From Bacillota bacterium (GTDB taxonomy: Bacteria > Bacillota > DTU065), in contig JAHDNZ010000054.1 of NCBI GenBank assembly GCA_018435125.1, positions 1 to 32,370 of the forward strand: a DNA stretch of 32,370 bases. The letters are read 5' to 3'. The translations under genes were made by a program, and so were the position numbers. Numbering within the stretch: the first letter of the stretch is position 1; each line of letters opens with the position of its first letter. The notes under the pieces are model-generated. The model saw only the letters and a program-made list of their open reading frames with translations. It made no database searches and was not told where the DNA came from. Below are positions 3,318-32,236 of this stretch, in pieces.

Positions 3318-3357
3318 TTTAATGAATTAATCTAGTAAAGAAATGAGGAGGGCTAAA

Positions 3358-3663
3358 ATGAGTACCTTAGAAAGGATAAAAGACAATCAGATTGAACTTT
3401 TGTTTACAGCTATCTTGACATTGAAGGATAAAGAAGAATGCTATAAGTTTTTTGAAGATATTTTGACTATAGCTGAAATTAAGGCTATGGGTCAACGTAT
3501 CGCTGTAGCTAAGATGCTCAAAAAAGGCGATACCTACACTGAAATCAGTAAAGAGACCGGAGCAAGTACTGCTACAATTAGTAGAGTCAAACGTTCGCTT
3601 AATTACGGCGCCGATGGGTATAATTTGGTTTTAGAAAGATTAAAACAAAAGGGTGAGATCTAA
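3358..3663 (+). CDS. yerC: TrpR-family regulator, YerC/YecD type; likely histidine-gene regulator
   Basis: A 101-residue, all-helical protein of the TrpR superfamily. The segment around MLKKGDTYTEISKETGAS, followed by TATISRVKRSL, is the helix-turn-helix. The start at 3358 is chosen because AGGAGG at 3346-3351 sits 6 nt upstream; the in-frame ATG at 3343 has no ribosome binding site and lies in front of that sequence. It overlaps hisZ by one base (TAATG), so the two are translationally coupled. YerC-like TrpR paralogues have been linked to control of histidine genes in Firmicutes. The position directly ahead of hisZ and the his operon fits that role here. The inferred operator is the imperfect palindrome over the hisG promoter. 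Confidence 0.85.
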   Translation: MSTLERIKDNQIELLFTAILTLKDKEECYKFFEDILTIAEIKAMGQRIAVAKMLKKGDTYTEISKETGASTATISRVKRSLNYGADGYNLVLERLKQKGEI

Positions 3664-4772
3664 TGCTTTTTGAAATACCCGAAGGAACAAAAGACTTTTT
3701 ACTAGGCGAAGCTAAGTGGAAAAACGAGATTGAGGATCTTTTACAGAAAAAACTCAGAGCCTGGGGTTATAGACAAGTAATAACGCCATCTTATGAATAT
3801 TTAACTACTCTTTCTCAGGGGGAAGAAAGCCGGTTAGACTATTTTAGTTTTTTAAGTGAAAACGGAGCGACTCTGGCGTTAAGAAATGATTTTACTACGC
3901 CAATTGCCCGTATTGCCAGTATTGCTCTAGCTGAGGAGATTAGACCACTTCGACTCTTTTATAGGGGTAATCTTTTCCGCCTCAAACATAGAGATAAACG
4001 TGAGTTTTGGCAGGCAGGGGCCGAATTAATCGGTGATGGCTCCCGATATGCAGATGCTGAAATATTAGCTCTTGCCATGTCTGCTCTTGACGAGTTAGGA
4101 ATTAAAGATTGGGGCTTGGATATTGGACATCGTAAAATACTTCAGGGAGTTTTAGAAGATTCTGCTTTGTCTAAAAAGGCCCAAAAACAAGCTGAAGCTT
4201 TGCTTTTACAAAAAGATTACGCTGGTTTAAAGGCTTTAGTTGAACAAGAAAAAACCGGTTATGATCTTTTATTATTACCCTCTTTAAGAGGACAAGAAGA
4301 GATTTTAGAGATAGCCAAAACAAAACTTGCTTCACCGAAAGCCAAAGAAGCTTTAGGAGAGATCGAAGAGATTCTTAAAGCTCTAAAACCTTATGGTTAT
4401 AAACAGATTAACATTGATTTGGCTATGGTTAAGGATCTATCTTATTATACGGGCATGTTTTTTGAATGTTATGCTCCCGGCCTTGCCGGTATAATCTGTA
4501 CGGGTGGACGTTACGACCAGCTGCTAGCTAATTTTAATCATTCGGAACCGGCTGTAGGTCTGGCTATAGGTATAGATGAAATCATGGAGGTTTTAGCTCC
4601 AAGCAGCCAAAAAAGCCTCCTAGATATACCCGATCTATGTCTGGTATACTCTGAAATCCAATATAAAGAGGCTGTAATAGAAGCTGAAAAAAAGCGTCAG
4701 ACAGGTTTTGCTGTTGTGCTGGCTAAAAAAGGCCCGCATCTTCCCCAAGCCAAGAAATATTTAGAGTTATAA
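3663..4772 (+). CDS. hisZ: ATP phosphoribosyltransferase regulatory subunit HisZ
   Basis: A 369-residue paralogue of histidyl-tRNA synthetase that pairs with short-form HisG in the first step of histidine synthesis. It gives HisG full activity and feedback inhibition by histidine. The class II synthetase core is visible: PEGTKDFLLGEA at the start, RLFYRGNLFR and REFWQAGAELIG for motif 2 and the region after it, and DLSYYTGMFFE with TGGRYDQL in the C-terminal half. The length and the lack of a full anticodon-binding domain separate it from true HisRS, which is over 410 residues. It is coupled to the upstream regulator gene and followed by a strong terminator, so it is transcribed apart from hisG onward. 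Confidence 0.93.
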   Translation: MLFEIPEGTKDFLLGEAKWKNEIEDLLQKKLRAWGYRQVITPSYEYLTTLSQGEESRLDYFSFLSENGATLALRNDFTTPIARIASIALAEEIRPLRLFYRGNLFRLKHRDKREFWQAGAELIGDGSRYADAEILALAMSALDELGIKDWGLDIGHRKILQGVLEDSALSKKAQKQAEALLLQKDYAGLKALVEQEKTGYDLLLLPSLRGQEEILEIAKTKLASPKAKEALGEIEEILKALKPYGYKQINIDLAMVKDLSYYTGMFFECYAPGLAGIICTGGRYDQLLANFNHSEPAVGLAIGIDEIMEVLAPSSQKSLLDIPDLCLVYSEIQYKEAVIEAEKKRQTGFAVVLAKKGPHLPQAKKYLEL

Positions 4773-4879: not shown

Positions 4880-5509
4880 ATGCTAACAGTAGCTTTGCCC
4901 AAAGGCAGGCTTATGGATAAAGCTCTAGAGCTCTTTGACAGAGCCAAAATTATTGAAACGACTAACTATGGTGAGTCACGCAAGCTAATCATTGAAGATA
5001 ATAAGGCTGATTTACGTTATATCTTAGCCAAACCAACCGATGTACCTACATATGTGGAATACGGAGTGGCTGATATAGGTATTGTCGGCAAAGATGTTTT
5101 AAAAGAAAATAAAAGAGCTGTTTATGAATTACTCGATTTAGGCATAGGCAAATGTCAAATGATTGTGGCTGTAAAGAGTGGTTCTGGTTTTAACAAGGTA
5201 CAGGAATTAGGCTTTAGTGCTAAAGTAGCCAGTAAATATCCTAACTGTACCACGGAATATTTTCGCAGTCATGGTATTCAAGCTGAAATAATAAAACTAA
5301 ACGGCTCGATAGAGTTAGCTCCTATTGTGGGACTGGCAGATGCTATTGTTGATATCACTGAAACCGGAAGAACTATTGCTGAAAATGGTTTAGAGATAAT
5401 TGCTGAAGTTTTTCCTATCTCTGCACGCCTAATAGCCAATCAAGTAAGTTATAAAATCCATTACCATAGTTTACGTGAAATGGTTAAGGCCCTAGAGGAG
5501 GTAATATAA
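4880..5509 (+). CDS. hisG: ATP phosphoribosyltransferase catalytic subunit, short form
   Basis: Joins ATP and PRPP to make phosphoribosyl-ATP, the committed step of histidine synthesis. At 209 residues it is the short form, which lacks the C-terminal regulatory domain and needs HisZ; hisZ lies just upstream. Family motifs are present: ALPKGRLMDKALELF at the N-terminus, VADIGIVGKDV around residues 65-75, and VDITETGRTIAENGLE around residues 155-170, which includes the PRPP-binding loop. AAAGGAG lies about 8 nt before the ATG. The stop directly abuts hisD. Confidence 0.97.
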   Translation: MLTVALPKGRLMDKALELFDRAKIIETTNYGESRKLIIEDNKADLRYILAKPTDVPTYVEYGVADIGIVGKDVLKENKRAVYELLDLGIGKCQMIVAVKSGSGFNKVQELGFSAKVASKYPNCTTEYFRSHGIQAEIIKLNGSIELAPIVGLADAIVDITETGRTIAENGLEIIAEVFPISARLIANQVSYKIHYHSLREMVKALEEVI

Positions 5510-6844
5510 TTGATAGTTCCTATAATTGATGGTAATAAGCAGAGCGAATATTTAGCCAGAATAAAGAGGCTTGATCTGATGGAGTTGGCAGATTCTTTGC
5601 CACCATCTGACTGGGGTAAACCTCTTTTTGGCAAAGCCCTAAAACCCGAACAAATTGTTAGAGCTATCTTACAAAAGGTAAAAGCCGAGGGTGATCAGGG
5701 ATTAAGAGAGATTGCAAAGGTTTTGGATAATTTTGAGGGTGATAGTCTATGTATCACCCCCAATTCTAACGCTTATAAAAAAGTATCCCCTGAGTTTCTT
5801 ACAGCTTTAAGACTAAGTATCAAAAGGATCAAAGACTTTCACCAAAGACAACTCCCACAAAGCTTCTTCTCTGAGGAAGAAGGTATCACTTTAGGTTATC
5901 GCCTTAAAGCAGTAAAAAGAGCTGGCCTTTATGTTCCCGGAGGCACAGCACCGCTAGTCTCCTCATTGGTTATGACAGCTGTACCAGCGCTGATTGCAGG
6001 TGTAAAAGAGATAAGTGTGGCTACACCTGTAAGGAATGGTTTTTTAGCACCTGAAATCGAGGTGGCTGCCCTGGAATTAGGAATCGGCGAGGTTCTTCCG
6101 CTTGGCGGTGCCCAAGCTATTGCCGCTTTTGCATATGGCACAGAAACTATTAAAAAAGTTGATGTAATTGCCGGTCCCGGCAATCTGTTTGTTACTCTAG
6201 CCAAAAAAGAAGTTTATGGTTTGGTTAACATTGACATGCTGGCAGGACCTAGTGAAATACTCATTATTGCCGATAGTAATGCCAAAGCAGAGCTTTTGGC
6301 TGCCGATTTGTTATCACAGGCCGAACATGATAGGGATGCGGCTGCTATCCTAATTACCACCGATAAGAATTTAGCTAGTAAGGTAAACGAGGAACTTGAA
6401 AAACAGTTAACTGATTTGCCTCGTAAAGATTACGCTCTAGCTTCCTTAAAAAACCACGGCGCAATAATTGTTGTCAATGACTTACAACAAGCAGCTCAAA
6501 TTGCCAACAAGATTGCACCTGAACATTTAGAAGTCCAAGTTAGCGAGCCGGAGACGCTTTTGCCGTATTTAGAAAACGCAGGAGCAATTTTCCTAGGTGA
6601 ATATGCGTCTGAACCGCTAGGTGATTATATTCTCGGCCCAAACCATGTTCTTCCGACATCAGGTACAGCCAGATTCGCTTCACCCCTTTCAGTAAACACT
6701 TTTCTTAAAGCGACCAGTGTACTAAAGGTAACTAAGATAGGCTTTAACAGGATCTTTAACCAAGGAGCAACTTTAGCTGCTGCAGAAGGTTTAGATGCTC
6801 ACCAAGAAGCGATTTTAAGGAGGAAAAAATATGCGGGAAGCTAG
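5510..6844 (+). CDS. hisD: Histidinol dehydrogenase
   Basis: A 444-residue zinc- and NAD-dependent enzyme that performs the last two oxidations from histidinol to histidine. Visible signatures are YVPGGTAPLVSS, VDVIAGPGNLFVTLAKKEV, DMLAGPSEILI, LLSQAEHDRDAAAI (zinc-ligand region) and GPNHVLPTSGTARF. The start is a TTG at 5510, directly after the hisG stop, with GAGGAGG at 5495-5501 eight bases upstream. The 3' end overlaps hisB by 14 bp, which indicates translational coupling within the operon. Confidence 0.96.
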   Translation: MIVPIIDGNKQSEYLARIKRLDLMELADSLPPSDWGKPLFGKALKPEQIVRAILQKVKAEGDQGLREIAKVLDNFEGDSLCITPNSNAYKKVSPEFLTALRLSIKRIKDFHQRQLPQSFFSEEEGITLGYRLKAVKRAGLYVPGGTAPLVSSLVMTAVPALIAGVKEISVATPVRNGFLAPEIEVAALELGIGEVLPLGGAQAIAAFAYGTETIKKVDVIAGPGNLFVTLAKKEVYGLVNIDMLAGPSEILIIADSNAKAELLAADLLSQAEHDRDAAAILITTDKNLASKVNEELEKQLTDLPRKDYALASLKNHGAIIVVNDLQQAAQIANKIAPEHLEVQVSEPETLLPYLENAGAIFLGEYASEPLGDYILGPNHVLPTSGTARFASPLSVNTFLKATSVLKVTKIGFNRIFNQGATLAAAEGLDAHQEAILRRKKYAGS

Positions 6845-7412
6845 TTTAAGTCGAGAAAGCTCCGAAAGCAGGATCGAAGTTAATCTCAATCTAGACGGAA
6901 CCGGTAAATCCAAGATTGCTACCGGAGTAGGCTTTTTTGATCATATGCTAACTCTCTTTGCGTTTAATGCCAAAATTGATTTAAGTGTGGAAGCAAAAGG
7001 TGATCTTGAGGTAGACGATCATCATACAGTAGAAGATGTGGGGATAGTTTTAGGTCAAGCACTAAGGGATGCTTTTGGGCAAAAGAAAGGAATTGCTAGG
7101 TATGGTTTTTCTCTTTTGCCTATGGATGAAGCTCTCGGAAGAGTCGTTTTAGATATTTCCGGCCGCCCCTTTTTGGTTTTTAAGGCTGAATTTACCAAAG
7201 AAAAGCTTGGCGATCTATCAACTGAAATGATAGCTGAGTTTTTCCGAGGATTGAGTGTGTGGGCCGGTTTAACCCTTCATATGGAGATAATTTACGGTGC
7301 CAATAATCACCATATGGCTGAAGCGCTATTTAAAGGTTTTGGTCAGGCACTTTATCAAGCTAAAATAGAAACCGGCAGTTTAGTTCCTTCAACTAAAGGG
7401 GTTATAGATTAA
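6831..7412 (+). CDS. hisB: Imidazoleglycerol-phosphate dehydratase
   Basis: A 193-residue monofunctional HisB that dehydrates imidazole-glycerol phosphate to imidazole-acetol phosphate using Mn(II). The two metal-binding repeats are clear: GVGFFDHMLTLFA and DDHHTVEDVGIVLG in the N-terminal half, and GANNHHMAEALFKGFGQAL near the C-terminus. There is no histidinol-phosphatase domain, so that activity must come from another gene that is not in this window. AAGGAGG precedes the ATG. The start lies inside the end of hisD. Confidence 0.96.
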   Translation: MREASLSRESSESRIEVNLNLDGTGKSKIATGVGFFDHMLTLFAFNAKIDLSVEAKGDLEVDDHHTVEDVGIVLGQALRDAFGQKKGIARYGFSLLPMDEALGRVVLDISGRPFLVFKAEFTKEKLGDLSTEMIAEFFRGLSVWAGLTLHMEIIYGANNHHMAEALFKGFGQALYQAKIETGSLVPSTKGVID

Positions 7413-7432
7413 TTTTAAGGTGGTATTTGCAA

Positions 7433-8140
7433 GTGTTATTAATACCGGCAATCGATTTAAGAAACGGCAAAGTGGTGCGCCTTTACAAGGGTGATTATAA
7501 TAAAGAAAAAGCTTATAGCCAAACTCCTCTTAAAATAGCTAACGGGTTTGCAAAAAGTGGTGTCCAAAGAATCCATGTTGTAGATCTAGATGGTGCCAAA
7601 GGTGATGGAACAAATCGCAGGACTATTTTGGAGATGGTCAAACAAACATCACTAATGCTAGATACAGGTGGTGGCATTCGTTCTCTAAAAGATATTGAGG
7701 AGCTTTTAGAGGGTGGTATAAAGAGAGCTGTTTTATCTACCATAGCCATAGAGCAGCCTGAGATAGTTATTCAAGCACTAAAAAGGTATCCGGGTAGGAT
7801 TACAGTCGGAGTAGATGCACTAGATGGTTTTGTAAAAGTGAGAGGTTGGCTTTCAACGTCGAAAATAAATGCTTTTGAGTTAATTCAAAAAATGATTGCT
7901 ATCGGAGTCGATGAGATAATCTACACTGATATCTCAAAAGATGGTACTTTAGAGGGACCTAACTTTTCAATCTATGAAAAATTAAGTAGCTTACCGGTAA
8001 AAGTTATTGCCTCTGGTGGAGTTTCTAGTTTAGCTGATCTAAAAAAGCTAAAATCACTTCCCCTTTCAGGTGTAATTGTAGGTAAAGCACTATATGAAGA
8101 AAAATTTTTGCTTGAGGATGCTTTGGAGGTTTTAGCATGA
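7433..8140 (+). CDS. hisA: Phosphoribosylformimino-AICAR ribotide isomerase HisA
   Basis: A half-barrel-repeat TIM-barrel isomerase of about 235 residues converting ProFAR to PRFAR. Signatures are [20 protein letters not shown] at the N-terminus, the paired phosphate-binding loops ([13 protein letters not shown] and [13 protein letters not shown]) and [15 protein letters not shown]. The GTG at 7433 is preferred over the TTG at 7427. AAGGTGG ends at 7423, giving a 9-nt gap to the GTG, and the protein then begins with the usual (M)LLIPAIDL. Only 20 bp separate hisB from hisA, exactly where hisH often lies in his operons. The end overlaps the next gene by 4 bp (ATGA). Confidence 0.94.
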
Positions 8141-9501
8141 ATATAAAAAAAATAATACCTTGCCTGGATTTTGAGGGAGGCAAGGTAGTAAAAGGTCAGG
8201 AGTTTCTAAACCTAAAAGATGTTGGAGACCCAGTAACTCTAGCTAAACACTATGAAGCCGAAGGTGCAGACGAACTGGTTTTTTTAGATATTTCCGCGAC
8301 TGAAAATGAGCGGAAAACGGCCTTGGATTATGTAGAAAAGATCACCAAGGCAATTACCATTCCTCTTTGTGTTGGCGGAGGCATAACCTCTCTTGAAGAT
8401 ATAGATCACATATTAAATCTAGGAGCCAGCAAGGTCTCATTAAACACGGCAGCAGTAAAAGACCCAAATCTTATTGCTAGAGCTGCACAAAGATTTGGCA
8501 GTGAAAGAATTGTTGTCGCTATTGATGTTGTTAAAAAAGATTCACAGTGGCTAGTTGTAACACATGGCGGCAAGAAAGTTACCGCTTTGGATGCTATAAA
8601 ATGGGCAAGCGATGTAAAAGAGCTTGGTGCCGGCTCAGTACTTGTTACCAGTAAAGATCGAGATGGTAAAAAAACCGGTTATGATCTCGATCTTATAAAA
8701 ACAATCAAAAAAAATGTAGACTTACCACTTATTGCCTCAGGCGGAGCCGGTAGTTTAACCGATCTTAAAGAGGGTCTAGAGGCGGGTGCCGATGCACTTT
8801 TAGCTGCCTCTATCTTTCATTTCTCAGAATTTTCTCTCAGTGAGTGTAAAGAATATCTAGCCCAGTGTGGTTTTTTAGTTTCGGCAATTAAAGGACTCAA
8901 ACCCAACTATAATGCCCAAGGTTTAGTAGCAGCTATTGCCGTAGACGAAAAAGACGGCACCGTTTTAATGCAGGCTTATATGAATCAGGAAGCCTTTGAA
9001 AAGACATTAATAACTCAAAGAGCGACTTATTATAGTCGCAAACGTCAAAAGATTTGGGTTAAAGGTGAAGAGAGCGGCCATTTTCAAATGGTCAAAGCCA
9101 TCTATCTTGACTGCGATCGTGATAGTGTTCTTCTGGTTGTAGATCAAATCGGAGTAGCTTGTCATACAGGTAATCGTACTTGTTTTTACACTCCGGTGTT
9201 TGGAAGTAATCAAGCTAGAATAGGTACAACTCTAAACGATCTACAAAAGACAATAAAAGAAAGACAAGAAAACCCCAAGGCTGGTTCCTACACTAATTAT
9301 CTTTTTAGTAAAGGTATAGATAAAATTTTAAAAAAAGTTGGCGAAGAGAGTGCCGAGGTAATAATTGCAGCTAAAAACCCTTCTTACGATGAGCTAATCT
9401 ATGAAACAGCAGATCTTTTATATCATTTAAGTGTTCTTTTAGAAGCAAAAGGTCTGAATTGGTTGGATATAGCTTCTGAGCTTAAACGCCGAGAAAAATA
9501 A
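8137..9501 (+). CDS. HisF-HisI-HisE triple fusion (cyclase, cyclohydrolase, pyrophosphatase)
   Basis: One uninterrupted 454-residue frame. Residues 1-250 are HisF (imidazole-glycerol-phosphate synthase cyclase subunit) with catalytic Asp11 ([15 protein letters not shown]) and Asp130 (VVAIDV). Residues 256-352 are HisI (phosphoribosyl-AMP cyclohydrolase), with [17 protein letters not shown] and the metal/cysteine set D325, C326, D327, D329, C342 and C349. Residues 363-454 are HisE (phosphoribosyl-ATP pyrophosphatase) with [22 protein letters not shown] and ETADLLYHL. HisIE fusions are common; HisF joined in front is not. In the HisF part, positions that build the ammonia gate facing HisH in Thermotoga HisF are changed: R5 to K, D98 to S and E167 to S, while E46 and K99 are kept. 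No hisH lies in this operon. Confidence 0.93.
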
Positions 9502-17618: not shown

Positions 17619-18848
17619 GTGGCTGACTGGAAAGTGCTATTGCTAATAGCAGGACTCGCTGCTTTGTTGTTTAGAGGTCCCTTTATTTATTTTATGTTTT
17701 ACCTGCTTGTAATGATCTGGCTGATACCGCCTCTTCTTCTAAGAAAAACTCAAGCACAGCTTCGTATCTCTCGCGAGCTTGAAGCCGACGCATTTTTCTA
17801 CGGTGAGAGAATGAAGGTTAAAATCAAAGTGGAAAATAACAGCAATTTCCCTTTGGTTTGGCTTAAAATAAAAGAAGCCTGTCCAAGGCAGATTGGACCT
17901 AAAGCTCAAACCAGTGTTAGCTGGGTTATTTCTCTAAAACCCAAAGAGGTCCGTATTCTGGAATATAACCTCTATGGAGGTAAGCGAGGGGCCTACCGTG
18001 TCGGACCGGTAAAGTTAGAACTAGGCGATATTTTTGGTTTGTATAAAAGAGAGCTTGAGGTACAGCTTTTTGATCTTATAACAGTATACCCCAGGATTAA
18101 ATCCATTGAAGAACTGGGATTAACCTCAACCCAACCGCAAGGGAATCTAAGGCATCCGCAAAAGATCTATGAAGATCCTCTAAAAATCGCAGGGCTTAGA
18201 GATTACCAGCCAGGTGATCCGCCAAAAAGAATCTCTTGGAAGTCTTCAGCTAAAATGGAAAAGTTAATGGTGCGTGAGTATGAGGCTACCATGACCTTGG
18301 ATACAATGATTATTCTTGATTTAGATATCAACGACTTTTTCCCCGGCAGATACGACTCTACTAAAGAACTGGCTATAACTATAGCGGCATCTCTGGCAGC
18401 TCATTTAGATCATAAAAGGCAAGCAATAGGTTTAGCTACTAACGGAGTTTCCGTAGCTGAAGCCTCTGCTTATTCCGATTCTAAAATCCTCGATACAGAG
18501 CCTTTGGAAAATATCGTTCCCCGGAAAGGACAGAGCAAACAACTGCTGGAGATTTTGGCTTGTATTGAAGGAAACAGAAAGGCCGAACCATTTTTGAAAC
18601 TGGCCGGTCGTGTTAAAGCAAGACTACCTTGGGGTTCAACCGTGGTATTGATTGTGCCAAGAGATTCAGAAGAGATCATGAATTTTTCTCAGTCTTTAGT
18701 ACACAGTGGTTTCAAGGTAGCTATTATTGCGGTAGAAGGTACCAAATATAAGGAGTATCTGACAAAATCGGCTACATCCTCTTTAGTTTTATATCAAGTC
18801 AGGGAGGAGGATGAGATAAGTGTCCTTGAACGTAAGAGAGAAGCATGA
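17619..18848 (+). CDS. DUF58 (BatA/VWA-like) protein, start uncertain
   Basis: A 409-residue protein with two N-terminal membrane helices (about residues 5-45), an immunoglobulin-like region, and the DUF58 core: DPLKIAGLRDYQPGDPPKRI, WKSSAKMEKLMVREYE and TLDTMIILDLD (VWA-like metal site region). It typically partners with MoxR. The GTG start at 17619 has no ribosome binding site. GGAAAGGAG (17561-17569) instead sits seven bases before a TTG at 17577 in the same frame, but that reading meets a TAA at 17595 after six codons. The gene may therefore be reinitiated after a mini-ORF, or carry a nonsense mutation in its first codons. The 3' end overlaps the next gene by 29 bp. Confidence 0.88.
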   Translation: MADWKVLLLIAGLAALLFRGPFIYFMFYLLVMIWLIPPLLLRKTQAQLRISRELEADAFFYGERMKVKIKVENNSNFPLVWLKIKEACPRQIGPKAQTSVSWVISLKPKEVRILEYNLYGGKRGAYRVGPVKLELGDIFGLYKRELEVQLFDLITVYPRIKSIEELGLTSTQPQGNLRHPQKIYEDPLKIAGLRDYQPGDPPKRISWKSSAKMEKLMVREYEATMTLDTMIILDLDINDFFPGRYDSTKELAITIAASLAAHLDHKRQAIGLATNGVSVAEASAYSDSKILDTEPLENIVPRKGQSKQLLEILACIEGNRKAEPFLKLAGRVKARLPWGSTVVLIVPRDSEEIMNFSQSLVHSGFKVAIIAVEGTKYKEYLTKSATSSLVLYQVREEDEISVLERKREA

Positions 18849-20343
18849 GCAAAACCTGATCTACTGGGTGTTACCTCTATTGTTGGCGGTAGTGGCCTTT
18901 GCTTTTGCCGCTTCCATCTCTGAGCTACTCGCGTTTGCTTGGCCTAATCTTAAACTACATTACTATTTGGGCTTTTTTACCATCATCATCTCTTTTATCG
19001 GTTATTTCTCTACCGCTCATCCCGAAGAACCCGGCAAAAAGCGTTCTTTGATACCGGAACTGTTTGCTTTAATTGTTTTGTGTAAAATCTATACCTTTTT
19101 TGTCTTGCCTCCGGAGGAGTTTTTTGCCCATCTAAAACTACGTAATTTTCTGGAAGCCAATTTTGTCTTTGCTTTTGTGCTGCATTATTTTGTCTGGCGT
19201 TTAGCAAGGGAAGTAGGGAAACTGGCCGCTACTATTAGTGCCTCCTACATCGATCGAGATCTACTTAGAAAGTATGATGACTCCTACGTCGGTAAAGCTG
19301 AGAAAGTAGATATAACTGGTCGCAATCTGGTTAAACTTTTATTTCTGCCGATGCTGCTTTTACTGCTAGGTGTTATTGTTACAGAACAGAGCTTTCAAGA
19401 AAAAATGGCTGCAGCCTCATACTTGCGTTTGGCTATCAATCTCTTCGGGGCTTTGTTAGCTGCGGCGACGATTGCAGTAGTTAATATGATGCTTTATCTT
19501 AGAAAAACCCGTGATTGGGACCGAGAAAACGCTACAGTTGATGAGGATTTAGCTGTAAAATGGGTTGCTTGGACCTTACTTTTTGTACTGCTGTTTTCTT
19601 TAGTCGCAGCTATATTACCAGACGATCTCTCACCTGTCTATTTTTATCTTCCCGATGCCATCAAGGCCTTATTGCCGTTTATCCATTCCAATAATGAGCT
19701 AGGGGGACAATCTTTCTACCCAAGGAATCTACCAAGACCTGATTTTATTCCCGAAGAGGGAGAACTCATTGTTAAAGACTACCGCTTATTGTACATGATT
19801 ATTACTGTATCAATAAGGATAGCTATCTTTCTCCTTATTTTGGGAGCGGTTTTGTACCATTTTTATAAGATCATTCAGGAGAATGCCGATGATCTGCCTT
19901 CATTTTTACGCAAAATAATGCGTGCTCTGGCCTATTTTGGGGCTTTGATTAAAGGTCTCTTCAAAAAAAGTAAGCTAAGATCTCAAAAGCAAAGCAAGTT
20001 AATTAGCGAACAATTAGGTGAACTATTTAAAAGGCGAAAAATCGCCCACAATCAGGTTCAACTAAATGAAATTCGCAGACTCTATGCTGAGCTTTTAATA
20101 GAAGCCAAAGAAAAAGGTATTGAAAGAGAAGCTTATAAAACCGCCAGAGAGTTTGGTTTAATATTAGAGGAACTGTTTCCTGAAAGAATAGCAGAGATTG
20201 TCAGTCTTACTGAATTGTATCAGGATGCCAGATATAATTATAAAGAACCTGACCAAGATAAAAATCTAACCGCTAAAGGGATCTTCAATACGGTTATAAC
20301 TGCTATAAAAAATTACACCCGAAAAAAAGAATCGCCAGTTTAA
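18820..20343 (+). CDS. Multi-pass membrane protein with C-terminal DUF4129-like domain
   Basis: A 507-residue membrane protein. About seven hydrophobic segments are visible: residues 14-36, 45-60, 80-96, 110-128, 175-192, 208-225, 250-270, then a late helix near 330-350. A cytoplasmic C-terminal region (residues 360-507) has IRRLYAELLIEAKEKGIER, YKTAREF and ELYQDARYNY, matching the DUF4129 pattern seen at the end of transglutaminase-like membrane proteins. No transglutaminase Cys-His-Asp core is present. GGAGGAGG (18803-18810) lies 9 bases before the GTG start, inside the end of the DUF58 gene, so translation is coupled. It is probably part of a MoxR-DUF58-DUF4129 envelope unit. Biochemical role unknown. 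Confidence 0.75.
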   Translation: MSLNVREKHEQNLIYWVLPLLLAVVAFAFAASISELLAFAWPNLKLHYYLGFFTIIISFIGYFSTAHPEEPGKKRSLIPELFALIVLCKIYTFFVLPPEEFFAHLKLRNFLEANFVFAFVLHYFVWRLAREVGKLAATISASYIDRDLLRKYDDSYVGKAEKVDITGRNLVKLLFLPMLLLLLGVIVTEQSFQEKMAAASYLRLAINLFGALLAAATIAVVNMMLYLRKTRDWDRENATVDEDLAVKWVAWTLLFVLLFSLVAAILPDDLSPVYFYLPDAIKALLPFIHSNNELGGQSFYPRNLPRPDFIPEEGELIVKDYRLLYMIITVSIRIAIFLLILGAVLYHFYKIIQENADDLPSFLRKIMRALAYFGALIKGLFKKSKLRSQKQSKLISEQLGELFKRRKIAHNQVQLNEIRRLYAELLIEAKEKGIEREAYKTAREFGLILEELFPERIAEIVSLTELYQDARYNYKEPDQDKNLTAKGIFNTVITAIKNYTRKKESPV

Positions 20344-20403
20344 ACCTTAAGATCATACTAAGTAAAACCCCAGATGACTTTTGGTTGTAGAGGGGTGAAG
20401 CAC

Positions 20404-21088
20404 ATGGCCTTAAAAGAAAATTCCAAAGAGAGAGTGCTGGCCTATTGGCTTTTGCCATGTTTTATGGCCATTATCGCTCTTGCTTTTACCTCTGCCATGG
20501 CTTTACCCCTTAATTTTATCTGGAGTAAGGTTACACTTTTTTGGCGCCGCCAATCCAAACAGATGGCTATGGCTACTTCAGTAAGGCTTTTTGCTAGTTG
20601 CAATATTTGGATTTATACTTTACCATTTACTGAAAAAACTTAGTGTCAACTCTGGAGCTTGGCCTAAGTTTCTAAAAATGATTGTTCAAGTACTTGGTTA
20701 TTTTTGGCAAACGCTAAGAAACTTTTTTGCAAGGGAAAAAGTAAAGCGCCAACAAGGCCGACTAATTACCGAACAGATAGTAAAAATGTTTAACAGGCGG
20801 GAAATTACCCACAATCAAGTCCAGCTAAATGAAATTAGCAGGCTCTATGCCAGACTTTTATAAGAGGCTAAAAAAAGGACTTGAAAGAGAGCTTATAAAA
20901 CAGTCGGAGAGTATAGTATAGTATTGGAAGAACCGTTTCCTGAAAAAACGTCATAGATTGTCAGTCTTACCAGGCATTTTTAGGATGCAAGATATAGTTT
21001 TGAGGAACTTGACCCAGATAAAAAGCTGACTGCCAAAGAAGTATTTCAAAGCGTAATCACAGCCATTAAAAACTATACCATAAAGTAA
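20404..21088 (+). pseudogene. Decayed tandem copy of the DUF4129-like membrane gene
   Basis: Starts at ATG 20404 with a match to the opening of the neighbouring gene (VLAYWLLPCFMAIIALAFTS against LIYWVLPLLLAVVAFAFAAS). It then jumps about 280 codons to the last membrane helix, so the central part is deleted. A frameshift follows near 20590 (SVRLF then LVAIFGFILYHLLKKL). The C-terminal domain continues with HNQVQLNEISRLYARLL, nearly identical to the intact copy, until a TAA at 20861. Beyond that, similarity to the intact gene can be followed in shifting frames to a final TAA at 21086. Two short open frames here (20374-20643, 20591-20863) are pieces of this one relic. Confidence 0.85.
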
Positions 21089-24764: not shown

Positions 24765-27700
24765 TTAATCAGTCTTTTTTTCTCCGTATGGCGTTTTTGA
24801 TTCTGCCACCATTGATAGGTTATTAGTTGAAGGCTCTAGCGTCACATCTGAATTCTCCTCAAAGTTCTCGACCTGTTCCATAACTTTTGTGAATACTTCT
24901 GGACTGTACTGTGGCGGATATCCGTTTTTGACTAGACAAATCTTAATGTCTAATTTCAACTGGTTTCGCACATTCTGGTTGTTTAGCCAGTCTGCAAAGG
25001 AAGATTTAGTGTCTATAATCTCTTTAACTTTTTTAGCTAATTCCTTGCATTTATCATTTACAATCACGCCATCGATTTCTTTTTCTGTACCATATTCAAA
25101 GTTATACTGGTCTCGTAGAGCAATCAATATATCATAAAATGCTTTTTCTTCAAATGTAAGACCTATTTTACGGAAACTTTCTCTGTTTTCCTGCATTTGG
25201 TGTAAGATTAATAGCGCCTGTTCTGTGGCAATTTTTATAATATCCTCAGAGGCTCTTTCTTGTGTCTCACCAGCTTCTTCAGCTGTCAGATGTTTCCGTC
25301 TTTCGTGATATTCTGCGATTGTCTTTTCCAGCATCTCCTGAAATGATTTTGCTGCTATTTGATTTATTTTCCCGTATTCTTTAATTTGCTTGCGAAGCAT
25401 TTTTATCAGAAGTTCAAGCTTGGTTGCAGGCATTTTGATGTCAGAAAGTTTCTCAAAGTACTCCGGAGAGAAGATGTCTTCATCCTCTCCACTTTCAAGA
25501 ACACTTTCTACCTGATTATATTTTAAAGCCTCTTCTACCATTTTTGAAACTGCACGATTCATGGTATCAGCATCAACATCACTTGTTCCGCTCATTTTGC
25601 GAACGAAACCTGCAATTGCCATAAAACACTGTGCAAGAGCAGACTCTTCTTCGCCAAGATCGCCTGATGGCTGACACACATCAAATGCTGTTCTCATTCT
25701 TTTTACAGTCTTTAAGAAGTATGTTTTAAAGGATACTTTTTGTGTCCCGCCGTTTCCTTCGGATTGTAATGCCTGTGTTGATACAAAAACATACTCAGCA
25801 GCCTTAGCGAGCAATTTATATCGTAACACTGGGTCACACTCTGGATTCAAGAACGGAGTCAAGTCATAATCTAAAAACAGCGTTTTTAAGATTTCCAATT
25901 CCTCTCTGAAAATCTGAGTCCCTTGCTCAACATCATCTGCTGTGGGAGCAACAGAAGTGTCACCCCCGTAAACCTTCATTGCCTCACGCATATTATCTCG
26001 AATACCAATGTAATCTATAATCATGCCATATTCTTTGCCCGGATTTTTTCTGTTAACCCGGCTAATGGTTTGAATTAGCATATGTTTCTTAAGTGGCTTA
26101 TCGTTATATAAATATGTAAGTGCGGGGACATCAAATCCTGTAACCCACATATCCACAACAATAGCAATATGAAAGTTTGATTTTTCTTGTTTGAAAGCAG
26201 CATCCAAGTCTTCAGAACGCTTGTCATTACGGACACCACCGAGATAATTATACATCTCTGTTTCATCATTACTACCGACACTTGAAACCATAGCCATGAA
26301 TGGCATAGGTTTTAACTCTTTCAGTTCTTCCGCCGTTACAGCAACATCATCTGGGGATTTCTTTTCTTCAAACCACTCTGGATATTTATCTTTAAATTTT
26401 TGTAATAGGGAATATGCAATAACTCTGCTGGAGCAGACAATCATAGCTTTTTGTATTCTGTCAGGATCCCCTGCACACGATAATACATAGTGGTCATGTA
26501 TATCTACTGCAAGGCGTTCCAAGCGTGAAGGTTCGCCTAGAATGACTTCCATCGAACTCATCGCTTTTTTACTTGCCTCGATATCTTCATATGTCGCACC
26601 ATCATCGGCACATTTTTTATAGTATTGCTCGATTTCATTGGCTTTCTTTTTATCGAGCAGAACTTTTGCAATACGTGGATGATATTTTATAGATACTGTC
26701 AATTCATCAGCGACTGCCTGATCCATTGTATAGCGGTCTACCTCGTCACCAAAGGTCTGATAGGTTTCAGCAATCGGCGTTCCTGTGAAGCCAACAAAAG
26801 TTGCGTGCGGGAATGCCTCTTTTAGTACTTTTGCATATGGCTTTGATACCATTGCTTTCATATTGTCATCATCATCTTTAGTAAATTGTATTTTCTTAGC
26901 ATGTTCAATCTGCGTTCTGTGAGCTTCATCTGAAAAACATATAATATTTTGACGGTCGTTAATTAGTCCTATCTTATCATCCTCACGATCACAGAATTTT
27001 TGGATGGTACATATATAGAAGCCACCACTTTCCCTTGCCCCCAGTTCTTGTCTTAAATGTTTTCTGTTTTTTACAATTGACACCTCACCAAGGTTCAAGA
27101 ATTCTTTGCTCTTTGTAAAAAGTTTCGCTCCTTGTTTCTGCAAATCATCTCGATCAACAATCATGATAATTGTAGGTGAACCAATTTCAGGAATATCACC
27201 GCATCGAAGTGCAAGCTGCCGAGCAAGAAAAGCCATTGTATAAGTCTTTCCACAACCAGTAGCACCAAAATACGTTCCACCCTTACCGCTCTTGGTAACA
27301 ATGGAGTTAATGATACTTTGTTTTAGCAATTTCGTAGCAAAGAACTGTGGATAACGGCATACAATTTCTTTTTCATCATAATCGTAAATGCTGTCTTGAA
27401 AATGAATATAATCTCTGAATATTTCAAGAAAACGTACCGGTGCATAAACGCCCTTTATCATCGTTTCGGTTTCTTCAAAAGGAAGAGTAGATATCAAATC
27501 ACCATCATTCACACGACGCCAAGCATAAAAATGCTCATATGGTGTTCGAACCGTTCCAAGCCGAGTCTTTACACCATCAGAAATACAAGCCAATGGGCAA
27601 TAATGTAATAGGTGTGGTATATCTCTCCAGTAACGAATGTTGATTTGTTCCCACGCATCAAAAATAGTGGCGTGAGCATCAGCAGGATTTTTCAGCTCAA

Positions 27701-28169
27701 TAACACAGAGTGGCATACCGTTTATGAAGAGAAGCACATCAGGCCTGCGATTCTCTTTCTGACCATTATTGGTGTATTCAACAGTAAACTGATTAACAGC
27801 ACGGAAAATGTTATCATCAGGATTCTCGAAATCAATCAACGGTATCATTCGTGCCAAGCTGTTTTGTGGCGTGAATTGAATACCATAGACCATCCAGTTA
27901 TACACCTTATGTAAGGTAGCAAAATCGCTTTCACTACCGACAAGGCGTACGTTATCATATATCTGGTTGATTTCATCGTCTGTCAAATCAGGATTTGTTT
28001 TCGATATAAATGATTTAAAGTCCTCTGCAATTAAAACATCCCTTTTCGTAATTCGTGAAATGCCATTGCCGGAAGAATAGTGCCAGCCTTCAGCTTCCAA
28101 AAAGCCAAGGAAAGCATACTCATATTCAGATTCACAGTAACGACCATTATAGTCTTTTAACTTAGCCAT
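24765..28169 (-). CDS. hsdR: Type I restriction enzyme R subunit HsdR
   Basis: A 1134-residue translocase-nuclease that cuts unmethylated DNA in complex with HsdM and HsdS. The nuclease site is PDVLLFINGMPLCVIELKN, with Asp144, Glu158 and Lys160. Helicase motifs follow: Walker A GATGCGKT (302-309), DEAH (414-417), FVGFTGTPI, and the motif V/VI region with MWVTGFDVPALTYLY and QTISRVNR. The C-terminal third (PATKLELLIKMLRKQIKEY to QYSPEVFTKVMEQVE) is the DUF3387-type helical domain of HindI-like R subunits. AAAGGAGG lies eight bases before the ATG, and hsdS stops 3 bp upstream. The frame is intact, but its partners are interrupted by insertion sequences, so restriction is probably lost. Confidence 0.95.
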   Translation of the reverse strand: MAKLKDYNGRYCESEYEYAFLGFLEAEGWHYSSGNGISRITKRDVLIAEDFKSFISKTNPDLTDDEINQIYDNVRLVGSESDFATLHKVYNWMVYGIQFTPQNSLARMIPLIDFENPDDNIFRAVNQFTVEYTNNGQKENRRPDVLLFINGMPLCVIELKNPADAHATIFDAWEQINIRYWRDIPHLLHYCPLACISDGVKTRLGTVRTPYEHFYAWRRVNDGDLISTLPFEETETMIKGVYAPVRFLEIFRDYIHFQDSIYDYDEKEIVCRYPQFFATKLLKQSIINSIVTKSGKGGTYFGATGCGKTYTMAFLARQLALRCGDIPEIGSPTIIMIVDRDDLQKQGAKLFTKSKEFLNLGEVSIVKNRKHLRQELGARESGGFYICTIQKFCDREDDKIGLINDRQNIICFSDEAHRTQIEHAKKIQFTKDDDDNMKAMVSKPYAKVLKEAFPHATFVGFTGTPIAETYQTFGDEVDRYTMDQAVADELTVSIKYHPRIAKVLLDKKKANEIEQYYKKCADDGATYEDIEASKKAMSSMEVILGEPSRLERLAVDIHDHYVLSCAGDPDRIQKAMIVCSSRVIAYSLLQKFKDKYPEWFEEKKSPDDVAVTAEELKELKPMPFMAMVSSVGSNDETEMYNYLGGVRNDKRSEDLDAAFKQEKSNFHIAIVVDMWVTGFDVPALTYLYNDKPLKKHMLIQTISRVNRKNPGKEYGMIIDYIGIRDNMREAMKVYGGDTSVAPTADDVEQGTQIFREELEILKTLFLDYDLTPFLNPECDPVLRYKLLAKAAEYVFVSTQALQSEGNGGTQKVSFKTYFLKTVKRMRTAFDVCQPSGDLGEEESALAQCFMAIAGFVRKMSGTSDVDADTMNRAVSKMVEEALKYNQVESVLESGEDEDIFSPEYFEKLSDIKMPATKLELLIKMLRKQIKEYGKINQIAAKSFQEMLEKTIAEYHERRKHLTAEEAGETQERASEDIIKIATEQALLILHQMQENRESFRKIGLTFEEKAFYDILIALRDQYNFEYGTEKEIDGVIVNDKCKELAKKVKEIIDTKSSFADWLNNQNVRNQLKLDIKICLVKNGYPPQYSPEVFTKVMEQVENFEENSDVTLEPSTNNLSMVAESKTPYGEKKTD

Positions 28170-28420: not shown

Positions 28421-29980
28421 ATGTCGGATTGGCAAATGTACTCAGAAATTATGCAGAAGAAAGCATTAAAGTTTACTCAAAGACAAACAGCTAGGTATCT
28501 AGGGATTAGCCGTAACACTGTAAAGAAATATTGGAATATGGACGCTGGAACATTTAACAATCTATTGTGTTCTCAGGGAAGGGAAAAGAAACTAACCCGG
28601 TATGATCAAATTATTATAGAATGGCTAACAAAATATCCCGACATGTCAGCTGCACAAGTAGTAGATTGGCTAAAAGAGTATTACAAAGTTAGAGATATTA
28701 ACGATAGAACCGCAAGAAGACATATAAGCACTTTAAGAGAAGAGTATGAAATAAAGAAACTCGTTAATCCACGTGATTATCAAGCACTTCAATTGCTTCC
28801 ACCTGGTAAACAGGTGCAGGTTGATTTTGGAAGTAAAACTGTAACAAGAGCAAGTAGTAAAAAAATAACACTCTACTTCGCTGCATTCATTCTTGCTCAC
28901 TCTAAATATTTGTATGCTTCTTTTTTAGACAGGCCATTCAGAACCCCTGATTTGATTTTGGCGTTTCAGCGTTACTTTGCCTACATTAATGGGTTACCAG
29001 AAGAGATAGCAATTGATCAAGATAAATTAATGGTTGTCTCAGAAAACAGTGGAGATATTATTTACACTTATGAATTTGAGCGCTTTATAGAAACAAATAA
29101 GCTTAAAATGTTTGTTTGCCGTAAAAGTGATCCTGAAAGCAAAGGTATCGTTGAAAGTGGTGCAGTACGTTATATTAAAAACAGTTTTATGCCGAATCGG
29201 TTATTCGATGAATTATCAAATTACCAAGTTCAGTTTGAATCATGGTTAGAAAGAACAGCCAATAAACGCATTCATAATACAATAAAAATAGTGCCAGCCG
29301 ATGTTTTTCTCGCCATAGAAAAACAGTGCCTTCGACCAGCACCAATACAAGAGATTAAAACTTGTGATTATATTCTAACAAGAAATGTCCATAAGGACAA
29401 CACTATTTGGTTTAAGTCTAATCGGTACAGTGTCCCCTTAGGAACTTATAACCAAACGAAATTGGTCGAAGTTAAAGTTGATGATGAAAATGGGATGTTA
29501 TTTATCCATGATTTGAAAACCACCTCACTTATTGCTAAACACAAAATATCAGTTGAGAAAGGCAAACTTATTCAAAACCAAAACCATCTTCGAGATTATA
29601 GTCAGAAGATCAGTGAATTACTTGAGACCATGGTCTGCGAACTAGGAGAGACTTATCGTCCGTTTTTAGAGGAAATATACCGATTAAAGCCCCGATATGT
29701 AAGGGATCAATTCCAAGTCATACGTAAGCTGATACAAGAACATGAACTAAGAAAAGTTCAAAAGGCAATTGACTACTGTATAAAAAATCGCATCACAAAT
29801 GTTACAGACATAAGCGATGTTATTGTATTTCTAAATCTAAACGAAACCGATAAAGGACCGAATAAGAATCAAGTTAAACTTCAGCCCAAGGCGCTAGAAG
29901 AAAAGATTCTAACAGTTGATACCGTTAAAAGAGATATTAATCTCTATTGTGAGCTGGCAGGTGAGAACTATGAAGTCTAA
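28421..29980 (+). CDS. istA: IS21-family transposase IstA
   Basis: A 519-residue DDE transposase. The N-terminal helix-turn-helix is [22 protein letters not shown] (about residues 17-38). A second DNA-binding region follows ([20 protein letters not shown]). The catalytic domain has VQVDFG (first Asp), [10 protein letters not shown] (second Asp region) and [11 protein letters not shown] (Glu region). The C-terminal part has the IstA-specific beta domain ([14 protein letters not shown]). No frameshift or stop interrupts it. The end overlaps istB by 11 bp. Confidence 0.95.
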
Positions 29981-30710
29981 CCTAGCAAACATTGAAGGAA
30001 CAATAAAAGCATTAAGACTGGAGCCCATAGACCTTAATAATTTATTAAACGAAAACTTAAAAGAAGAATTAAGTCCTTTACAGGTTATTGAACGGTTTTT
30101 ATCCCAACAAGTACAACTTAAAGAACACAAATCATATGAGGCCCGCCTTAAAGCAGCTAATTTTCCTTTTATAAAAAGAATAGAAGAGTTTGATTTTGGA
30201 TTCCAACAGAGTATTACTAAGGCTCAAGTGCAAAAGTTATCTGACATGACATGGATTGAATCTGCATTTAATTTAATGTTTCTCGGTCCTCCAGGGGTAG
30301 GTAAAACATTTCTTGCTATTGCATTAGGCATAAAAGCGATTGAACAAGGGTATCGAGTATCGTTTGTTAACTTTGATGAATTGATTAAGATAATCAAGCA
30401 TGCTGAGATTACAAGACGATACAAAAGTCGGTTAAAAACCATCTTAAAAGCACATTTGATTATAATTGACGAGGTAGGCTTTATGCCTATCTCGCAGGAA
30501 GAAAGCAATCTATTCTTTAATTTTGTTTCTCAAATGTACAACCAAACATCGATTATTATTACATCAAATAAAGGTTTTAAAGAATGGATAGACTTTCTTG
30601 GCGACGCTACAATCACAACAGCTACTTTAGATCGCCTAGTTCATAAATGCGAAATATTCAACTTGACCGGAGATAGTTACAGGATGAAACATCGCGAAAC
30701 AATATTATAA
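29970..30710 (+). CDS. istB: IS21 helper ATPase IstB
   Basis: A 246-residue DnaC/DnaA-like AAA+ ATPase that selects target DNA and activates IstA. It has Walker [17 protein letters not shown], Walker [14 protein letters not shown], sensor region [13 protein letters not shown] and the arginine-containing [21 protein letters not shown]. The ATG at 29970 is chosen because AGGTGAG lies just upstream and the overlap with istA is usual; an in-frame TTG at 29916 has no ribosome binding site. Confidence 0.95.
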
Positions 30711-30762
30711 AGTGGCTCAAAATTAATGTCCGTTTTTGGCACTTTTTACTTGACCGCTGACA

Positions 30763-30767
30763 ACTTT
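30763..30767. repeat. Right copy of IS21 target-site duplication ACTTT
   Basis: Same five bases as 28276-28280, immediately outside the right inverted end. Confidence 0.88.
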
Positions 30768-31793
30768 ATATGCATTATATATTTCTACTATTGCTTGTTG
30801 AACTTTTAAGTCTGGAATAGGTATTTCTATTTCATAGAAACGATCCATATCCAAATTTGTTCTTATACTACCATCACTCATAAACCATCCAAGGCGGTCA
30901 ATTTCTTTTCGTGAAAACCACATCATCACATACTCTGAAAGGACTGAATCATCTTTTGTTTCAAATACTGCGTATGCAGGAGAAATAATGATTGGAAACT
31001 CCTCATTATATAAGGCTATACGAATACATTCATCTCGCCCTGTCTGCATCCCTGAAAAAGCAAACTGTCCTTTCCGCACCAACTTGTATTTGGATAAATC
31101 AACCTCATGAATATTAGCTACAGATGGCATAAACTGTTTGGTTATATTAATACCCTGAACTTCTGTAATCGTTCCATCAACATTTCGACAGTCAATTTCT
31201 CTTAAAATATCACCTGTGGTTCTTTTTGGTGCTTTATGTTTATATTCATCAATAAGAGCTTCAAATGAAATCTTCAAATCTTCTAACCCACGCTCATAAC
31301 TCTGCTGATTGGCAAGCATGGCATTATAGACATTCACATATTTTTGCTGTATTGGGAGAGATGGAAGTTCGATATCAATGTCACAAAAATCGGCCCAGTC
31401 AAAAGTTTCTCTAGCAGACCCCCATGAGTTAAATCGTGAAAAACGGTCAAATTCAGGACGGTTAAAATACATATAAAGATAAGTTGAAAGAAGTAAGTCA
31501 GGTCTTTGCACGCGAAAAACAGTATAAATAGAAGATATTAAAATTTCTTTATCATCATTGTATGCCAATGCGATTTTATCCCCTCGTCTTGATGTATCGG
31601 CAACATATGCGAATTCGTTGTTCTTCACAACTTTATAGGAAACCAAGCTTACTCCATCCATATTAGCTTTTGTTTCAATAAATAATTTTCCAGTTGATAT
31701 GCCTTTTACATCTGCAACTGTGTATTTACCATCATTGTTTCGTTCATCGCATTGCTCAATCAATTCTCCAAGCTTATATTTAGTCAATGCCAT
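30763..31793 (-). pseudogene. hsdS: hsdS specificity subunit, 5' part, cut by IS21 near its end
   Basis: The DNA-recognition subunit of the type I system. Residues 1-343 are native and hold two target-recognition domains. TRD1 ends with FCDIDIELPSLPIQQKYVNVYNAM and a conserved helix; TRD2 ends with YEIEIPIPDLKVQQAIVEIYNAYK and the start of the second helix. After residue 343 the frame enters IS21 and stops at 30723, giving a 356-residue product that ends VVSGQVKSAKNGH instead of the native 34-residue tail. The ATG at 31793 is preferred to an in-frame ATG at 31814: AGGGGG lies seven bases before it, and it overlaps the end of hsdM by 14 bp. The intact gene would encode 377 residues. The truncated protein may lack part of its HsdM-contacting helix. 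Confidence 0.9.
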
Positions 31794-32236
31794 AGCCAAT
31801 CCCCCTAAATGCATCCTCCAACATCTGCTGGGATTTTTTCTCGGCTTTCATCACTTCACGCATTTCAGTTTGAATACGAGTCATCTCTTTTTCATAGTCA
31901 ATCTCCAAATCATGGTCAATAAACTCAATATACTTACTTGGTGTAAGCGACCATTTTTGGGTTTCAATCTCTTCTATTCCAACACTTCGATAGAGTTCTG
32001 GCACTTCGTACTTCGCTCCATCTGTTCCTTCGCTTTGCCATGTGTGGTAAATGTCAGCTGCTTTTTCAACCTGCTCCGTTATCAGACGGACTTTCTTTTT
32101 GTTTTCGCCCTTAACAGGATTTTCTGTCCATTGACGTAAATCCATAAAGAGAATTTCATGTTTACGGTTGCGGAGGCTTCTTCCGCGGTAACTGCCGCCT
32201 TTTTTATTTTGATTCAAAATCCATAGGGTAACGGTT
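31780..32236 (-). pseudogene. hsdM: 3' fragment of hsdM, truncated by an IS3-family element
   Basis: About 151 C-terminal residues of the type I methyltransferase subunit remain. The frame enters from the insertion junction as TVTLWILNQNKKGG, the usual segment after the catalytic domain, then RNRKHEILFMDLRQW and a C-terminal helical domain rich in Glu and Lys. The catalytic NPPF motif and SAM-binding region are not in the window and would lie beyond the insertion sequence, if they still exist. The apparent start at 32217 is an internal TTG, not a real start. The stop overlaps hsdS. Confidence 0.88.

Follow-up and report, generated by a model that had tools for sequence, protein, structure and literature searches.

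The window, the 32,370-nucleotide stretch of contig JAHDNZ010000054.1 (Bacillota; DTU065) that was analyzed as a whole, carries a single co-directional run of histidine biosynthesis genes on the forward strand. At its head lies a gene for a YerC/TrpR-like regulator (3343-3663; TIGR02531, 147.8 bits), followed by hisZ, for the regulatory subunit of HisG (3663-4772; TIGR00443, 288.7 bits, cut-off 271.65), the short form of hisG (4880-5509; TIGR00070, 218.6 bits), hisD (5510-6844; TIGR00069, 498.8 bits), hisB, for imidazoleglycerol-phosphate dehydratase (6831-7412; NF002111, 271.2 bits, cut-off 231), hisA (TIGR00007, 259.5 bits, cut-off 228.95) and hisF. The hisA gene ends at 8140 and starts at a TTG at 7427 or, more likely, at a GTG at 7433, with a ribosome-binding-like AAGGTGG at 7419-7425, seven bases ahead. 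As the hisB stop is at 7412 and hisA begins at either of these codons, there is no room for hisH at its expected place, and the coordinates bear out a preliminary description of this DNA, according to which hisB and hisA are 20 bp apart (7413-7432) with nothing between them. Within the family of the window's genome (G000), for which four further genomes are available (G001-G004), the order hisZ-G-D-B-A-FIE is identical in G001 and G003, including the adjacency of hisB and hisA, and G004 matches up to a contig break. In three genera of this family hisA follows hisB directly in a contiguous operon.

The hisF open reading frame (8137-9501, 454 amino acids) consists of a HisF domain at approximately residues 1-250 (8137-8886; TIGR00735, 311.5 bits, cut-off 294.55) and runs on into HisI and HisE (PRA-CH and PRA-PH domains, 8902-9501), a fusion that the preliminary description did not mention. 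Pfam places PF01502 at residues 278-351 and PF01503 at 366-452, and this part belongs to HisIE (NF002747) by its score (256.8 bits, cut-off 187) and by the presence of both domains. The same fusion is found in G001, G003 and G004, and the fused frame is intact in all four genomes. HisF-HisIE fusions occur separately elsewhere, in G217 (family f25) and G150 (family f78), and all are in genomes lacking HisH; none was found among the HisFs with a HisH that passed the HisF search, and in most genomes with HisH hisIE is an adjoining separate reading frame. A divergent HisF-like N-terminal domain joined to HisIE is present in a member of the Lachnospiraceae whose genome has HisH (L065:5290-6714). 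Fusions of HisA to HisF were also observed (L114, L115, L119 and L123 of family f62, and L013), in four genomes without and one with HisH. Several fusions are known in the histidine pathway, namely the bifunctional HisIE, HisHF, HisNB and HisIED (PMC1963479). The HisF-HisIE protein has the HisI-HisE order and the joining of pathway enzymes in common with these, but lies outside the five fusions given in that study.

Further downstream, a two-gene element at 28421-30710, which resembles IS21, encodes a transposase (weak rve and Mu-type C-terminal matches) and an ATPase, and lies between hsdR (24765-28169, reverse strand) and hsdS (30723-31814, reverse strand) of a type I restriction system. Two short reading frames at 20374-20863 resemble a truncated, partly duplicated copy of the preceding DUF4129 protein (18820-20343).

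The HisF domain aligns with HisF of Thermotoga maritima (PDB 1THF; phmmer) from residue 3 to 248 on 3 to 248 in a single gap-free stretch. This alignment reproduces the residues called by eye in the preliminary description: K5, S98 and S167 replace R5, D98 and E167, whereas E46, K99 and the catalytic D11 and D130 are kept. In addition, D176 is retained, position 123 has E for Q, and R249 falls in an alignment gap at the start of the fusion linker. The set of HisH-contacting residues R5/D98/Q123/E167/R249 thus reads K/S/E/S/gap, and the heterodimer signature is absent. Compared with T. maritima HisF (1THF/1GPW), the fold, the catalytic D11 and D130 and approximately 50% of the residues are shared, but the window protein has no HisH, carries an altered HisH face (K5/S98/E123/S167), has lost R249 and is fused to HisIE. 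Its score, its catalytic aspartates and its location in the his operon place it in TIGR00735, and its AlphaFold model (mean pLDDT 94.7, pTM 0.71) has the standard HisF fold (Foldseek E 5e-32 to HisF structures).

The replaced positions have been characterized in complexes of HisF with HisH. Q123 of HisF recognizes the glutamine carboxylate in simulations (PMC9052757), and D98 touches N12 of HisH when the complex is active (PMC8115485). With E167A, HisH binds ten times more weakly, and R249 forms the hinge to W123 of HisH (PMC9032424). The preliminary description had proposed comparing HisFs with and without hisH at such positions, and had coupled the loss of the partner to the change of the residues that face it. 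For this comparison, 54 HisFs, drawn from genomes of the phylum and related contigs, were scored as having and 50 as lacking HisH; the latter come from genomes without a HisH match, except for a second hisF without adjacent hisH in G045, and in the genome of one of the former (L071) HisH is represented only by a fragment that scores below the cut-off and sits at the edge of a contig. All 54 HisFs with HisH carry R5, D98, K99, Q123, E167 and R249, S98 and S167 do not occur among them, and at least one of the six is replaced in 0 of 54 HisFs with HisH versus 43 of 50 without, counts that come from sequences related by descent and do not equal independent events. The coupling thus holds in this set. 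Losses among the HisH-less proteins affect D98 (26), Q123 (35 of the 49 that are readable), E167 (11), R5 (9) and K99 (8, always to Arg), while E46, D11 and D130 are invariant in all 104 HisFs and D176 in all that are readable. With E46 preserved, and K99 mostly so, part of the gate remains in place. The seven HisH-less HisFs in which all six residues are kept may reflect recent losses or gaps in the assemblies.

Erosion is concentrated at the interface. Of 78 positions conserved to at least 95% in HisFs with HisH, 43 are practically as conserved in those without, and the largest drops are at positions 124, 123, 98, 78, 249, 103 and 49. For nine interface and gate positions named in the literature the mean drop is 0.26, against 0.06 elsewhere (p 0.002 in a permutation that ignores relatedness). 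The four HisFs of the window's family (G000, G001, G003, G004) top the erosion ranking. Fusion to HisIE was considered as a reason for the altered interface and was ruled out, as most eroded HisH-less HisFs are unfused. Loss of HisH with retention of HisF is frequent in the phylum: 37 of the 80 HisH-less genomes searched retain hisF. On the best topology of the HisF tree there are at least 11 changes of the HisH label (10-13 across bootstrap trees), of which strongly supported branches force only 2, and an independent-pairs test likewise has only two pairs on well-supported branches, which leaves it without power.

A genome-wide search for hisH, as had also been proposed earlier, returned none in the window's genome or its four relatives. 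In G000 (2.55 Mb, 96% complete, 91 contigs) the HisH model TIGR01855, which detects HisH in 14 of 14 control genomes, gave nothing above the cut-off, and the only weak match is partial (21 bits) and lies inside GuaA. Profile searches did not find hisH in G001-G004 either, all genomes of the family being drafts; in G002 (85% complete, 450 contigs) hisF was not found above the cut-off either. The class-I glutamine amidotransferases (GATases; PF00117) of G000 comprise only GuaA, PyrG and one peptidase C26 protein, whose gene sits away from the his genes. The TrpG/PabA model gave nothing above the cut-off in G000, and no divergent HisH able to substitute was found there. Because TrpG/PabA is missing, few GATases are left and other glutaminases are lost or disabled in the family, the evidence points much more strongly to free ammonia than to another amidotransferase as the predicted nitrogen source of the window HisF.

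The losses among other glutaminases extend over several pathways. G000 has two copies of CarB. One lies directly after argD in an arg operon of the order argC-J-B-D-carB-F-G-H, from which carA is missing (L128:8343-8349, contig C2), and the carB-bearing arg operons of G001, G003 and G004 have the same order of gene lengths with no space for carA. The other, which is intact, is preceded in the pyr operon by a gene for a CarA-like protein that has lost the glutaminase nucleophile (L127:6938-7912, contig C74). In this protein Pfam detects only the N-terminal CPSase domain, and its GICLGHQ motif has become AISEAAQ (FMGEVTN in G003, ALTLAAQ in G004); the HPE motif is lost as well, so that pyr CarA lacks the catalytic Cys and HPE in three genera. 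In the purine operons of G000 and G003 (purC-purL-purF; L157:7665-10580 on contig C8 of G000, and L158) a small PurL (885.7 bits in G000) is adjoined by neither purS nor purQ, and PurQ was not found in either genome. G001 encodes a single-chain PurL with GIASGF for GICNGF, a change of Cys to Ala (L153:1492-5241); G004 also has a single-chain PurL, in which the nucleophile Cys is kept. GuaA of G000 (L059:5281-6828, contig C34) reads GIGYGMQ for GICYGMQ, a change of Cys to Gly that rests on one codon of a draft genome, in an otherwise intact GATase domain, and GuaA of G003 is intact. The Cys of PyrG is kept in four genomes of the family and PurF of G000 keeps its N-terminal Cys region; judging from these remaining nucleophiles, glutamine use is not abolished in the family.

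Tryptophan synthesis offers a parallel elsewhere in the phylum, where trpE is directly followed by trpD in six genomes with no TrpG above the cut-off genome-wide and a HisH-less hisF in the his operon (L142, L145, L146, L147, L148, L149). In one of the six (G045) HisH adjoins the other hisF. Among other HisH-less genomes, trpG is still present in two, and in G018 a GATase is joined to TrpE. In the window's own family a missing TrpG is uninformative, since TrpE is absent there.

For carbamoyl-phosphate synthetase, a precedent exists in the ammonia-using carbamoyl-phosphate synthetase I of vertebrates, in which the known change is Cys to Ser. There, too, the small-subunit domain no longer hydrolyzes glutamine (PMC6022934), which for the present family is predicted from the sequence; in contrast to the vertebrate enzyme, the synthetases of the family are bacterial, have separate subunits, and in one copy are without any CarA. 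Type N NAD synthetase is similarly an ammonia-using synthetase without a glutaminase (PMC3376133), but it is a different enzyme, concerns one step, and is not a lineage-wide feature.

Several other explanations can be weighed against a HisF fed by free ammonia. The place of HisH on HisF could be taken by a different glutamine amidotransferase or by some unrelated protein that releases ammonia: PyrG and the peptidase-C26-type GATase fold are still in the genome, and the altered HisF surface could fit a new protein. We consider this unlikely, as neither TrpG/PabA nor PurQ nor a divergent HisH was found, the C26 gene has no his neighbor, and CarA and PurQ are hit by the same pattern of loss. Moreover, the docking positions of HisH-less HisFs are occupied by many different residues with no new consensus, which looks like relaxed selection rather than the conservation of a new interface. 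The drift of these residues, together with the apparent absence of hisF from the 85% complete G002, might instead signal a decaying histidine pathway with HisF heading for loss. That is very unlikely, given that all genes of the operon are open and score well, the catalytic residues are intact, the fused frame is intact in four genomes, and the model predicts a standard HisF fold at a pLDDT of 94.7.

With G000 96% complete in 91 contigs, hisH might also exist in the organism and be absent from the draft assembly. This would have to apply to four more genomes of the family, despite an operon that is contiguous in three genera, and it would not account for docking residues eroded in four hisF-bearing members, which the presence of HisH would prevent; we therefore regard it as extremely improbable. 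It is scarcely conceivable that the window HisF serves surface-sugar amidation, as HisF2/WbuZ-type enzymes do, instead of histidine synthesis. Such paralogues exist and their models do score the protein, but it stays under the cut-offs for WbuZ (259.2 versus 299.7 bits) and AglZ/HisF2 (221.7 versus 310 bits) while exceeding that for HisF, and its gene belongs to a his operon and continues into HisIE. Moreover, HisF2/WbuZ paralogues normally have a HisH-like partner of their own.

The window probably encodes a functional, ammonia-fed HisF cyclase that works without a glutaminase, within a lineage that has shed glutaminase functions. PRFAR bound at the active site of HisF would react with free cytosolic NH3, which would enter by way of the uncovered N-terminal face of the barrel or directly at the active-site face. 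HisH would have been lost first or early, after which selection on R5, D98, Q123, E167 and R249 would have lapsed while the catalytic site was kept, and HisI-HisE would have become joined to the HisF C-terminus. By sequence, the same habit of the lineage has also removed or inactivated the glutaminases that serve carbamoyl-phosphate synthetase and FGAM synthetase and, in G000, the one of GMP synthetase, as would be expected of cells living on ammonium. Most simply, a presumably ammonium-rich habitat would supply enough free ammonium to make separate-subunit glutaminases dispensable. HisF is known to work on ammonium without HisH in vitro and also in vivo, where hisH mutants of other bacteria still obtain IGP from it: a K. 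pneumoniae mutant is restored by high NH4+ (PMC5919458), deletion in C. glutamicum has no effect (unpublished observations cited in PMC3896937), and hisH of E. coli is non-essential in aerobic data sets (PMC3423039). These three organisms naturally carry hisH, whereas the window's family has none and its interface is eroded. We found no literature report of natural HisH-less lineages, most subscription journals lying outside the search.

The pair of HisF and HisH is a textbook model for ammonia channelling and allostery. In naturally HisH-free HisFs evolution separates the docking residues from the catalytic ones, and these proteins are ready enzymes with which to probe ammonia entry. Automatic pathway calls that demand HisH, CarA, TrpG or PurQ would mis-score such organisms as auxotrophs. 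The joint loss of CarA and PurQ raises the question whether ammonia channelling is needed where ammonium is plentiful. On balance, the sequences favor a family in which free ammonia has replaced glutamine as the source of nitrogen for histidine, carbamoyl-phosphate and purines, through the deletion or inactivation of glutaminase subunits (HisH, CarA, PurQ and, in places, the GuaA and PurL domains); the loss of HisH or TrpG with HisF or TrpE kept, which recurs across the phylum, may then be a common path in ammonium-fed anaerobes.
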